Part shown: piece after piece, positions 18,639 through 22,167 of the stretch
Numbering within the stretch: position 1 is the first letter of the stretch
Layout of the letters: the number at the start of each line of letters is the position of its first letter
Assembly (NCBI RefSeq): GCF_030813515.1
Contig: NZ_JAUSUK010000002.1
Coordinates: forward strand, 744,001 to 808,000
From: Rhodopseudomonas julia
GTDB lineage: Bacteria > Pseudomonadota > Alphaproteobacteria > Rhizobiales > Afifellaceae
Length of the DNA stretch: 64,000 nt
Direction of reading: 5' to 3'
Position numbers and translations under genes: made by a program
Notes under the pieces: model-generated
The model's database searches: none
What the model saw: only the letters and a program-made list of their open reading frames with translations
Told to the model about the DNA's origin: nothing

Positions 18639-19280
18639 TCAGGCGTTTGCATGTGCCGGCTGCGAAAGAGATTCAGAGTGTTTACCCGGAATCCGTGACT
18701 GCCCGGCAAGAGCGATCCCACAGCCGGCCAGAAGCCCTGCGACATGGGCGCCGAGATGCGGTGGCCAGACGAGGTCTGCTGAAAAAATCGGTCCGAAGGC
18801 CGCCTCCCAGGCGATCTTGGCGACGTTCGCGCCGAGGGCAAGAAGCCAGATCTTGTCACGCGTCTCTTTCCAGAGGCCGAGGGTGAGCGCCGCATAGAGC
18901 GTGTTGAGAACGGCCGAGAGGCCGCAATAGCGGAGCGTTTCGGGGAAGAGGGCGAGGAGGGTGGCCGTGACCGCCAGGCCGCCGAAGCCGAAGACGTGGA
19001 GAGCGAGCCGGCGCGAGCCGCCGAAGGGGGAGAGCTCGTAAGCGATGCCGAGCGCCAGAAGCGCGCCCAAATTATAGCTGAGATGGTGAAGGTCGAGATG
19101 GACGAGATGGCCGGTCACGAGCCGCCAGACTTCGCCGGCTTCGATCGCCCCGCGATCGTAGACGAGGCCGGAGGGCGCGCCACCGGCGAGGGCGTAGAGA
19201 GTGCCGATCAGAGCAGCAAGGCCGAGGGTGAACCACGGCAGGCGAGGCCTGCCGTGGAACACATTAGCGAGCGCCTGCAT
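18639..19280 (-). CDS. rrtA: Rhombosortase (rhomboid-family GlyGly-CTERM protease)
   Basis: 213 residues with about six membrane helices. The rhomboid landmarks are present: HLVHLDLHHLSYN (residues ~58-70), catalytic Ser122 in CGLSAVLN, and catalytic His179 in HLGAHVAGLLAG. Short rhomboids of this plan (rhombosortases) cut GlyGly-CTERM tails of secreted proteins. The start codon overlaps the stop of the upstream VIT/VWA gene by one base (TGATG), so the two are translationally coupled. That upstream protein ends in a GlyGly-CTERM tail, which makes it the obvious substrate. ATG 19280 is used because a longer extension runs inside the upstream gene. Confidence 0.88.
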   Translation of the reverse strand: MQALANVFHGRPRLPWFTLGLAALIGTLYALAGGAPSGLVYDRGAIEAGEVWRLVTGHLVHLDLHHLSYNLGALLALGIAYELSPFGGSRRLALHVFGFGGLAVTATLLALFPETLRYCGLSAVLNTLYAALTLGLWKETRDKIWLLALGANVAKIAWEAAFGPIFSADLVWPPHLGAHVAGLLAGCGIALAGQSRIPGKHSESLSQPAHANA

Positions 19281-21391
19281 CAGGCGGCCTCCCGCCGGCG
19301 CAGGCGGAGGGTGCCGCAGAGCACGAGGATCGCGAGGATCAGGCCCGGCAGGCCAATGGCGCCAGAGCCGCCGGAACCGCCGCCCGAATGGGAGGGGCGA
19401 GGGGCATCGAACATCGGCGTTTGGGTATCGACCCGGGTCGTCTGCGCCGGCGTGTTCATGCGCTTCTGGCGGGCTGTGTCTTCCACGGCGAGGCGGTCGC
19501 GGTTGGTACGATCGATCGCCAGCTCCTCGAACCGCTCGTCGCGCACCACCAGCATGGAGGTGAAAGGGGAGAGGATGCCGTATTCCTTGGAGGTGTCGAT
19601 GACCGATTGCTTGACGTCGGCGTCGCTGCCCAAGAGGTCGAGTTTGCGAAGCTCCCGCTCGATTTCGGCAAAGGCCCAAAGCCGCTCAAGCTCGGGGTTG
19701 AGGTTCACGGTCTCGGGGAAGGCGAAGCGAGTCTTATAGGAAACCGGCTTGCCGGAAATCTCGCCGGAGAGCGTCAGGTCAGCTTCGCCAGCGCCGCGGT
19801 AATGGCCGAAGAGGACCATCTGTTCGCCGCGATAAAGGGTGCGTATGCCCTTGCGGCGGAGATCGTCGATGGTGAGGTCGCTGCCTGACGGGTCGAGATC
19901 GAGCTTCACGCCGTGAAGCGCCTCGTGGGTCACTTTTGTCGTTGCCTGCAAGAGAACGCCGATGATGTCGTCGGAATTGGAGACCGCGCTCGCGAAGCCG
20001 CCGGATTCCAGTGTCATCGGTTCAAGCAGCGGGCGATTGACGCTGTTGCCCATGATGGCGGTGAAGAGGCGCACATCCTGCTCTTTCACCAGAGCGAGAA
20101 AGTCCTTCACCTCCGTGCGGCCGACATTGGCGACGCCGTCGGTGACGAGGACGAGGGCGCTTGTGCGGTCGGCATCCGCCGCGTCGAGGCCGAGCTTGAG
20201 GCCGTCGTAGAGATTGGTGCCGCCCGAGGCGTCGACGCTCCGCACCCATTCGAGTGCCTTGGAGATGCTCTCCTGGCTGGCATTCATGAAGCCTCGGGTG
20301 AGCTCTTTGGCGCTGTCATTGAAATAGACGATGCGGAAGCGGTCGTCGGGATTGAGCTGGCCGAGGGCGCGCGAGACGCCTTCCGTGAGGCTCGACATCT
20401 TGCCGCCCATGGAGCCGGAGCGATCGAGCACGAAGATGAAGTCGCGGCCTTCGGTGATCGGCTTCAAATCCATGCCGGGCGTCAGCGTCAGCATGAAGGT
20501 GCCGCGGCCATCGCTCTCAGGCTTGTAGGCGAGCATGTCGACGCGAGCCGGCTCGTTCTCGGCCTGGCGCCAATAGACGACGATGTCGGTGTCGAGTTTG
20601 AAGTTTTGTTTGGCTTGTGCCGGCGTCGAGGCCGGCTTGTCCTCATCGGCTGGGGCCGCGTCTTCGACAGCTTCGGAACCGGCGTTGGGGGCGGCGGTCG
20701 CGTTGTCGATATGGACGCGCCAGCTGCCATCCAGATCCTTTGAGATGGCGGCGCCCGGATGGGCCGGGAGGCGCAGGGCCTCGACCGTATAGTCGGTGCG
20801 CAGGTGGAGATCGAAGCTGAAGCTGCCGGTGACCGTCTCGTTCGCCGTCCAGAAGGCGAGCTTGTTGTCGTCAACGCCGCCTTCTTCCAAGGGATAGACG
20901 AAGCGGCCGATGCCGGTGTCGAGCTTCGCCGGCTGGATGTAGGCGAGGCGGATCTTGACGTCGCTTCCCGCCCGCACGGGCCAGACGGTCATGTCGAAGG
21001 TCTTGTAGGCGTCCTGCTCGGCAAGTGCGGTCTCGCGACCGGCCGCCTTCTCGCCCTCGTAGATATTGCGGGCCTCCTCCTTCTCCATGACTTCCGCCGT
21101 CACCGGCTTGCCGTCGATCCAGTAGGTGAATTCCGACACAGCCGCCCGTTCGGGAACCGGGAAGGAATAGATCGCCTCCATGTCTTCGGCGTTCGGATTG
21201 GCGAAGGTCTGCTCGACCGTGACGACGGCATAGCCGCCCCCCACCACCACATCGACTGCCTGGTCGCGCAGATCGAGAGCCGGCGTACCGTCTTTCGGCG
21301 TCATCAGACCGGCTGCGTCGGCGGCAGGGGCTGCGACGACTGCGCCGAGCGCCAGACCGGCTGCGAGCGCGAGCCGTTTCAGGGAGTGCAT
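19280..21391 (-). CDS. Secreted VIT/VWA-domain protein with GlyGly-CTERM tail
   Basis: 703 residues from ATG 21391 (GAGG six bases upstream; two earlier in-frame ATGs are possible). Signal peptide ~1-26. A VIT domain follows (~28-155, VVTVEQTFANPNAEDMEAIYSFP), then a VWA domain near residue 320 with an intact MIDAS start DRSGS. A linker leads to the C-terminal tail: Gly/Ser run SGGGSGGSG, one hydrophobic helix and a terminal RLRRR cluster, the three parts of GlyGly-CTERM. It resembles the 'marine proteobacterial sortase target' family, but here the partner is a rhombosortase. Predicted export, tail cleavage and surface anchoring or release. Divergent from a tetR gene. Confidence 0.9.
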   Translation of the reverse strand: MHSLKRLALAAGLALGAVVAAPAADAAGLMTPKDGTPALDLRDQAVDVVVGGGYAVVTVEQTFANPNAEDMEAIYSFPVPERAAVSEFTYWIDGKPVTAEVMEKEEARNIYEGEKAAGRETALAEQDAYKTFDMTVWPVRAGSDVKIRLAYIQPAKLDTGIGRFVYPLEEGGVDDNKLAFWTANETVTGSFSFDLHLRTDYTVEALRLPAHPGAAISKDLDGSWRVHIDNATAAPNAGSEAVEDAAPADEDKPASTPAQAKQNFKLDTDIVVYWRQAENEPARVDMLAYKPESDGRGTFMLTLTPGMDLKPITEGRDFIFVLDRSGSMGGKMSSLTEGVSRALGQLNPDDRFRIVYFNDSAKELTRGFMNASQESISKALEWVRSVDASGGTNLYDGLKLGLDAADADRTSALVLVTDGVANVGRTEVKDFLALVKEQDVRLFTAIMGNSVNRPLLEPMTLESGGFASAVSNSDDIIGVLLQATTKVTHEALHGVKLDLDPSGSDLTIDDLRRKGIRTLYRGEQMVLFGHYRGAGEADLTLSGEISGKPVSYKTRFAFPETVNLNPELERLWAFAEIERELRKLDLLGSDADVKQSVIDTSKEYGILSPFTSMLVVRDERFEELAIDRTNRDRLAVEDTARQKRMNTPAQTTRVDTQTPMFDAPRPSHSGGGSGGSGAIGLPGLILAILVLCGTLRLRRREAA

Positions 21392-21412
21392 GATCATCCT
21401 CGTCTCCATTCT

Positions 21413-21466
21413 TGAACAACGTTCATGAACATCGTTCACTCGTATCCTATCTGTGAACATTGTTCA
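21413..21466. promoter_or_regulatory. Three copies of a 13-bp operator (TGAACANYGTTCA)
   Basis: Near-palindromic 13-mers at 21413-21425, 21426-21438 (directly abutting) and 21454-21466: TGAACAACGTTCA, TGAACATCGTTCA and TGAACATTGTTCA. They fill the 131-bp gap between the divergent VIT/VWA and tetR start codons. The geometry fits a dimeric repressor; the adjacent TetR protein is the natural candidate, an inference. Confidence 0.8.
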
Positions 21467-21522
21467 AGTCGGAGTGGTGACGTTGTGCAATCTGCGCTAA
21501 TCGGAAGGCAGGAGGGTCGGAT

Positions 21523-22167
21523 TTGGCCGAGAGTTCTAGCCCGCGGCGGCGAGCCGCCGACATCAGGTCCGCCATGATTGACGCGGCGGAGCGCATCGTC
21601 AGCGAGGAGGGGGTGTCGGCCGTCACGGCCCGGCGCGTCGCCTCCGAAGTGGGCGTCGCCGTCGGCACCACGTACAACGTCTTCGACAATCTCGGCGCGC
21701 TCATCGCGGCCGTGAATGCGCGCACCTTTGCCGCCCTCGCCGAGACGATGTCAGAAGTGACGGTGGAAGGACGTGCGACGCGCGAGGTGCTGCTCGACTT
21801 CGCCGATCGCTACGCCGACTTCGTCCACGAGAATGAGCGCCGCTGGCTCGCCGTGTTCGAGACGGAAATGCCTGCCGATGGTGCCGAGCCACCGAATCAG
21901 CCGACTGTCGACCGACTGTTCGCCACGCTGGAGCAGGCGATCCGCGCACATGACCGGCGTATCGACGACAAGCTTGCCCGGCAGTCGGCGCGCGGCCTTT
22001 GGGCGGCCGTGCACGGGCTCCTCATCCTCTCCGCCTCCGGACGTCTCGGTGCGATCCGCCTCGACAGCGTGCGGCCGACCATCGAGCATCTCGTCCAATG
22101 CCACCTTGCCGGGCTCGAAGAGCTGGTGAAGCGGCGCAAGGACGGCGACCAGCTGCCGATGTTCTGA
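21523..22167 (+). CDS. TetR/AcrR family regulator
   Basis: 214 residues starting at a TTG (21523) behind a strong AGGAGG. The N-terminal ~60 residues form a TetR-type HTH (RSAMIDAAERIVSEEGVSAVTARRVASEVGVAVGTTYNVFDNLGALIAAV). The C-terminal ligand domain is helical with no recognisable ligand site. It is divergent from the VIT/VWA-rrtA operon, and the three 13-bp operator copies between them suggest that it represses both that operon and itself. thyA follows 83 bp downstream in the same direction but is probably a separate unit. Confidence 0.9.
   Translation: MAESSSPRRRAADIRSAMIDAAERIVSEEGVSAVTARRVASEVGVAVGTTYNVFDNLGALIAAVNARTFAALAETMSEVTVEGRATREVLLDFADRYADFVHENERRWLAVFETEMPADGAEPPNQPTVDRLFATLEQAIRAHDRRIDDKLARQSARGLWAAVHGLLILSASGRLGAIRLDSVRPTIEHLVQCHLAGLEELVKRRKDGDQLPMF

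Follow-up and report, generated by a model that had tools for sequence, protein, structure and literature searches.

Adjacent pairs consisting of one rhombosortase and a single client with a GlyGly-CTERM tail were described in 2011 by Haft and Varghese (PMC3237569, Table 3), and relatives of VIT/VWA proteins ending in GlyGly, PEP-CTERM or LPXTG tails were described in the same work; single-client pairs and the tail diversity of VIT/VWA proteins are thus already in print. According to that report, bearers of GlyGly-CTERM proteins and rhombosortase generally possess a type II secretion system (T2SS), and virtually all rhombosortases have His at the fourth position after the catalytic serine (Ser+4). 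In Vibrio, rhombosortase cleaves the client VesB, which becomes linked to a moiety containing glycerophosphoethanolamine, and the T2SS carries the processed client to the surface (PMC6219818). Tail and rhombosortase are reported to suffice for membrane association, and crossing of the outer membrane to need a further secretion signal (PMC13393428). The subject of the present analysis is a locus in a window of 64,000 nucleotides from Rhodopseudomonas julia (NZ_JAUSUK010000002.1, 744,001–808,000; all coordinates below are positions within this stretch), the genome of which comprises 3.79 Mb and is 99% complete. A VIT/VWA gene, a rhombosortase gene (rrtA) and a divergent tetR gene would appear to constitute a self-contained, privately regulated sorting unit, whose product is probably a periplasmic protein tethered to the inner membrane; the probability of this reading is estimated at about 0.55.

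The gene arrangement given in the initial annotation was confirmed. The VIT/VWA gene (19280–21397, minus strand) encodes 705 residues if translation starts at the ATG at 21397. The open frame extends to 21460 (726 residues); the start was placed at 21397 because the operators described below cover 21413–21466 and because of the predicted Sec signal peptide MIMHSLKRLALAAGLALGAVVAAPAADAA (21317–21397, minus strand; cleavage after ADA, read by eye from the translation). The protein contains a VIT domain (20939–21268, minus strand, residues 65–174 of the 726-residue frame; Pfam PF08487, 109.7 bits) and a VWA domain (19967–20443, minus strand; Pfam PF00092, 51.2 bits) with the motif DRSGS / GGTNL / VTDG, which was kept in 6 of 6 aligned VIT/VWA proteins. 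The VWA domain keeps DxSxS, T and D, presumably the residues of a metal ion-dependent adhesion site (MIDAS). At its C-terminus the protein carries a GlyGly-CTERM-like tail, SHSGGGSGGSGAIGLPGLILAILVLCGTLRLRRREAA (19283–19393, minus strand), with a Gly/Ser motif, a hydrophobic stretch and RLRRR. The TGA of this gene and the ATG of rrtA (18639–19280, minus strand, 213 residues) overlap by one base (TGATG), and the gene for a TetR-family repressor (21523–22167, plus strand; Pfam PF00440, TetR_N, and PF13305, TetR_C_33) is oriented divergently.

Six of 297 genomes of the order contained a rhombosortase over cut-off, and all six showed the order tetR/VIT-VWA/rrtA (the tetR of locus L031 was recognised by profile; loci and genomes are cited by L and G numbers). 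Only these six genomes contained VIT/VWA proteins with 58–92% identity to that of R. julia, the value of 92% being found for Afifella marina DSM 2698, which has the same genus code; in the other 31 genomes of the order matched at E ≤ 1e-20 the VIT/VWA proteins were 24–29% identical. A scan of named genomes yielded 85 relatives, of which 80 were kept; the titles are nearly all those of alpha- or gammaproteobacteria, some being broader. Together with the locus of R. julia, L031 and L033 these make 83 distinct loci, since L032, L034 and L035 come from genomes already represented by L105, L126 and L112 and were dropped. A rhombosortase gene follows directly after the VIT/VWA gene in 44 of 76 assessable loci (42 by rule, L147 and L154 by coordinates), and 46 of the 49 named genomes with a client have a rhombosortase over cut-off. 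Judged by these sequences, the tetR/VIT-VWA/rrtA unit occurs in many proteobacteria.

The rhombosortase of R. julia passes TIGR03902 (100.6 bits, cut-off 84); a second match to this model in the same genome is weaker and lies under the cut-off. Ser122 (codon 18915–18917, minus strand) and His179 (codon 18744–18746, minus strand), which had been proposed as the active site, are both invariant among 43 aligned rhombosortases. An AlphaFold2 model of the enzyme (mean predicted local distance difference test score 89.5) had 32 PDB matches at E ≤ 0.001, with GlpG entries among the matches listed and GlpG as the best of them (E 4.6e-05); a comparison of the sequence with solved structures gave GlpG as the sole match, at E 0.5. 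Sequence and model together point to a Ser/His dyad in a rhomboid fold.

The enzyme has Asn126 (codon 18903–18905, minus strand) at Ser+4, where most enzymes not downstream of a VIT/VWA gene have His; the reported His signature, which lies outside the curated cut-off, is therefore missing. Among the 44 VIT/VWA-adjacent rhombosortases the residue is Asn in 34, Phe in nine, Thr in one and His in none. Seventeen rhombosortases not directly downstream of the client have His in 14 cases, the rest having Asn, Thr and Tyr, although this share is no census, since the non-adjacent enzymes were drawn from genomes selected for VIT/VWA and from best-scoring loci; one of the 14 (L143, identical with L191) is situated about 0.9 kb upstream of its client on the opposite strand, and without it the ratio is 13 of 16. 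The tally was made by hand after removal of duplicates, and L208 was excluded because its adjacency is hidden by a contig end. In a tree of 62 rhombosortases, in which L208 was treated as adjacent and seven end branches are long, VIT/VWA-adjacent enzymes and the others are separated by one branch with 100% support (Shimodaira-Hasegawa-like approximate likelihood ratio test). The genomes of L122, L129 and L130 each possess one rhombosortase of either Ser+4 type, both over cut-off; a fourth genome, G335, has two over cut-off, with Ser+4 read in one. At the sequence level, the VIT/VWA-adjacent rhombosortases form a branch of their own, without His at Ser+4 and usually with Asn.

The form of the client's tail was assessed with a rule (glycine motif, hydrophobic stretch of 14 residues, followed by at least two basic residues), which was composed after such tails had been seen. 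It was satisfied by 72 of 78 complete VIT/VWA loci, including that of R. julia, versus 1 of 589 other open frames from the same loci; five of the six failures are tail-like by eye, and one (L154) is in a broken frame. In this draft genome (L154:963–3691) the VIT/VWA gene is split into more than one frame between tetR and the rhombosortase gene. The tail of R. julia is tripartite, has a Cys-free glycine motif and is found at the extreme C-terminus of a protein with an N-terminal signal peptide (the latter recognised by eye). Thus, of the complete GlyGly-CTERM tail claimed initially, the form is real by this rule, and a listing by the curated models is lacking. TIGR03501 (cut-off 15.5 bits, which the VIT/VWA protein fails) gave no matches in the whole genome at E ≤ 0.001 or E ≤ 10. 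Since it misses even this tail, it is unfit for counting clients, and a profile built from 26 tails of relatives, with that of R. julia among them, was used.

With this profile the known tail was detected in the genome of R. julia at E 1.5e-11, and the next best match had E 0.47. Four more matches came up, of which L254, L260 and L268, when read, proved to be no C-terminal tails with a glycine motif; the fourth is known from the list of matches. In the control genome G320 the profile finds two more true-looking tails. In two other control genomes (L248, L252) the known VIT/VWA tail scores only about E 0.1, so that divergent clients could be missed, and the negative result, i.e., no other C-terminal tail with a glycine motif in the genome of R. 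julia, has moderate sensitivity. Together with the position of the enzyme in the VIT/VWA-linked branch, this result favours the dedication to one client which had been suggested.

The palindrome TGAACNNNGTTCA is present in three exact copies in the genome of R. julia, all at the VIT/VWA promoter: operator 1, TGAACAACGTTCA (21413–21425), operator 2, TGAACATCGTTCA (21426–21438), and operator 3, TGAACATTGTTCA (21454–21466). Read on the minus strand, operator 3 overlaps the −35-like TTGAAC, which is followed by 17 bases, the −10-like hexamer TACGAG and, directly downstream, operator 2; this promoter-like element of VIT/VWA-rrtA (21439–21467, minus strand) was recognised by eye. A similar layout, also by eye, is found in 6 of 6 loci, with TTGAAC or TTGACC separated by 17 bases from a hexamer that contains A/T, at the same place. 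Exact TGAACNNNGTTCA stands upstream of VIT/VWA in 26 of 30 loci with tetR versus 4 of 53 without it; if one mismatch is allowed, the numbers are 30 of 30 versus 5 of 53. The 934 kb searched contain 54 exact copies, 53 of which are within the 30.6 kb of promoter DNA. Searches of whole genomes gave three exact copies each in G000 (R. julia), G028, G107, G060 and G097, all at the VIT/VWA promoter; the reversed pattern, used as a control, occurred twice in G097, once in G251 and not in G000, G028, G107 and G060.

Of the 42 loci that have an adjacent rhombosortase by rule, tetR is present at 15 and missing from 27, and it occurs at 11 further loci that lack an adjacent rhombosortase. At L115, L127, L141 and L166 operators are present upstream of VIT/VWA and a match to the tetR profile is missing within the fetched flanks, so that a tetR farther away or of a different kind is predicted. 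By sequence comparison, tetR and operator go together across loci, yet not universally, and the switch looks private to the VIT/VWA-rrtA promoter in five of six genomes, including that of R. julia, which lends good support to the suggestion that the unit has its own TetR switch. Seven loci, from Woeseiaceae and others (L123, L128, L132, L134, L137, L180, L181), have tetR and operators by the VIT/VWA gene and no adjacent rhombosortase; the operators of L180 and L181 contain one mismatch. In the six genomes of this set that were searched (all except that of L181), a rhombosortase is located elsewhere, with His at Ser+4 in five and Asn in that of L128.

The initial annotation placed the client near the targets of the marine proteobacterial sortase and proposed that a sortase had been exchanged for a rhomboid protease. 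The score of the protein against TIGR03788, the sortase target model, is far under its cut-off (221.7 versus 551.65 bits). An exchange would mean that an LPXTG-sortase VIT/VWA system had lost its sortase and gained a rhombosortase in this lineage. The materials for such an event exist within the order, since 56 of the 297 genomes bear a sortase and six a rhombosortase, PEP-tailed VIT/VWA relatives are present too, and genus g18 contains loci of both kinds in different species. However, in a tree of 58 VIT/VWA rows all 33 GlyGly rows are on one side of a branch with 100% support, although long branches at the join prompted a warning from the program; the rows represent 33 of 83 GlyGly loci, 20 of 56 sortase loci, three PEP-like-tailed and two other proteins, and the last 50 residues were removed where the matched part reached them. 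Matches to sortase-linked proteins are only 24–28% identical, the close relatives fetched have GlyGly-like tails, and in genus g18 the sortase locus (one genome) and the rhombosortase loci (two genomes) share no detectable DNA. Neither a tetR-profile match nor the exact operator was found in any of the 20 sortase loci examined, of 56, and exact TGAACNNNGTTCA is missing from 270 kb of sortase loci. A recent exchange is thus very improbable, and the GlyGly VIT/VWA unit looks, on these comparisons, like an old separate lineage and not a local swap.

Sortases themselves were sought as well. The genome of R. julia gave no PF04203 matches at E ≤ 1 and no TIGR03784 matches, and a sortase profile which found 20 of 20 sortase loci (two of them as seeds) detected none in the 80 named loci, within the fetched flanks. 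None of the six rhombosortase-bearing genomes of the order has a sortase; about one would be expected by chance, and this result was not used as evidence. Three VIT/VWA proteins of the same order (L061, L073, L074) have PEP-CTERM-like tails (APEPEAMLALL, STPEPEHLIAL and APEPGTIGAMI, respectively), which makes three sorting tags on this protein family within one order.

A probable course of events can be outlined. TetR would bind the palindromes flanking the divergent promoter and repress the VIT/VWA-rrtA transcript, probably also its own; release of TetR by a ligand would switch the VIT/VWA-rrtA transcript on. The signal peptide should take the VIT/VWA protein into the periplasm, where the C-terminal tail of glycine motif, helix and basic residues would anchor it in the inner membrane. 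Rhombosortase, presumably made from the same transcript, would cleave in or beside the glycine motif, and the new C-terminus may be joined to a phosphoethanolamine lipid, by analogy with VesB of Vibrio. With no T2SS found, the product would most likely remain in the periplasm, tethered to the inner membrane, and could offer a metal-dependent VWA binding site there.

The location of the product is the point where other explanations diverge from this reading. In the genome of R. julia and in the five relatives the best GspD match reached 132 bits (cut-off 351) and the best GspE match 53 bits (cut-off 630); this lack of T2SS is noteworthy, because bearers of rhombosortase generally have the system (PMC3237569) and because, according to a review, it is present in most alphaproteobacteria (PMC10128026). 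The surface display proposed initially would require that the processed protein crosses the outer membrane by a T2SS missed by the models, or by another route. It would agree with the fate of the processed Vibrio client (PMC6219818) and with the GspD scores of the 49 client-bearing genomes, which exceed the cut-off in 27 of the 29 from gammaproteobacteria and in 7 of the 20 from alphaproteobacteria, many of the 20 being drafts, three of them (L105, L112, L126) being G107, G060 and G251, and L113 being titled only Proteobacteria; one further alphaproteobacterial GspD matches over its full length, slightly under the cut-off. Against this stand the lack of GspD and GspE over cut-off in a genome which is nearly complete and in its five relatives, the fact that the only matched secretin of R. 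julia is of pilus type (N-domain PF13629), and the report that tail and rhombosortase alone yield membrane association only (PMC13393428). Surface display is therefore doubtful, and since the last step is assigned in Vibrio to the T2SS, which was not found here, a periplasm-facing tether appears, by analogy, likelier. A timed release, in which the rhomboid hydrolyses the tail and frees a soluble periplasmic or released protein with no lipid joined, is about equally unlikely. Rhomboids are proteases, transamidation cannot be taken for granted in an enzyme without the usual His at Ser+4, and regulated release was proposed by Haft and Varghese (PMC3237569); the glycerophosphoethanolamine-type modification of VesB after cleavage by rhombosortase (PMC6219818) speaks against it.

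Several results weigh against the periplasmically tethered, privately regulated unit preferred here. GspD is over cut-off in 7 of the 17 further alphaproteobacterial genomes with the unit, and the lack of T2SS is therefore no property of the unit. The curated GlyGly-CTERM models, including TIGR03501, list neither the VIT/VWA protein nor its five nearest relatives at E ≤ 10. Since Ser+4 is Asn, the chemistry may differ from that of VesB. Two of the 49 client-bearing genomes (G323, G341) are without a rhombosortase match at E ≤ 1e-12, a consensus promoter scan of the locus returned no promoter, and G251 has seven exact copies of TGAACNNNGTTCA, one at the VIT/VWA promoter and six away from it. 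Four of the exact operators of G251 are clustered about 60 kb from the module (G251:C93:91735–92398), perhaps at a second TetR target. A more general proposal can be made only tentatively, namely that an Asn-type subfamily of rhombosortases has co-evolved with one VIT/VWA client, in many lineages under a private TetR switch, and provides an inducible, T2SS-independent cut and lipid tether that keeps an adhesin-like protein inside the cell envelope and does not display it.

In the available parts of the literature searched (including PMC3237569, PMC6219818, PMC13393428, PMC5300114 and PMC10128026), neither the private set of operators nor the branch of Asn-type enzymes nor the setting without T2SS was met. 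Rhombosortase has so far been understood, from Vibrio, as a step toward surface delivery by the T2SS. A unit with one client found, one repressor and no T2SS found could serve as a minimal system for the role of cutting and tethering alone. The change at Ser+4, with both types in three genomes, should be a handle on how two rhombosortases might separate their clients, and the TGAACNNNGTTCA motif should allow screening for the ligand of the repressor with a plain reporter.

Among proteins and systems of known kind, several resemble the unit in part. Inter-alpha-trypsin inhibitor heavy chains are animal plasma proteins. They provide the best solved-structure sequence matches to the VIT/VWA protein, over the VWA part and beyond (PDB 6fpy, 9c4f), but differ in having no membrane sorting tail. 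The PEP-CTERM VIT/VWA proteins have the same client domains and a C-terminal sorting tail and occur in the same order; they differ in the PEP-type motif and in the exosortase expected as partner. The marine proteobacterial sortase TIGR03784 and its target TIGR03788 likewise combine a VIT/VWA client with a sorting enzyme beside it, but with LPxTAT-like tails, a sortase, and the low identities and operator-free loci given above. VesB and the rhombosortase RssP of Vibrio cholerae are similar in tail architecture, in the rhomboid enzyme and in the expected cut within the glycine motif; they differ in delivery by the T2SS and in the clients, of which there are six in one genome, those named being for the most part proteases along with a DNase and no VIT/VWA proteins (PMC13393428). 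The closest counterparts are the pairs of Haft and Varghese, in which one client and one rhombosortase are also adjacent, and vault-protein (VIT/VWA) homologues are among their GlyGly families (PMC3237569). As described there, these pairs stem mostly from gamma-, beta- and deltaproteobacteria, generally with T2SS and virtually always with His at Ser+4, in contrast to the present unit, which was found in an alphaproteobacterium without a detected T2SS, has Asn at Ser+4 and carries private TetR operators.

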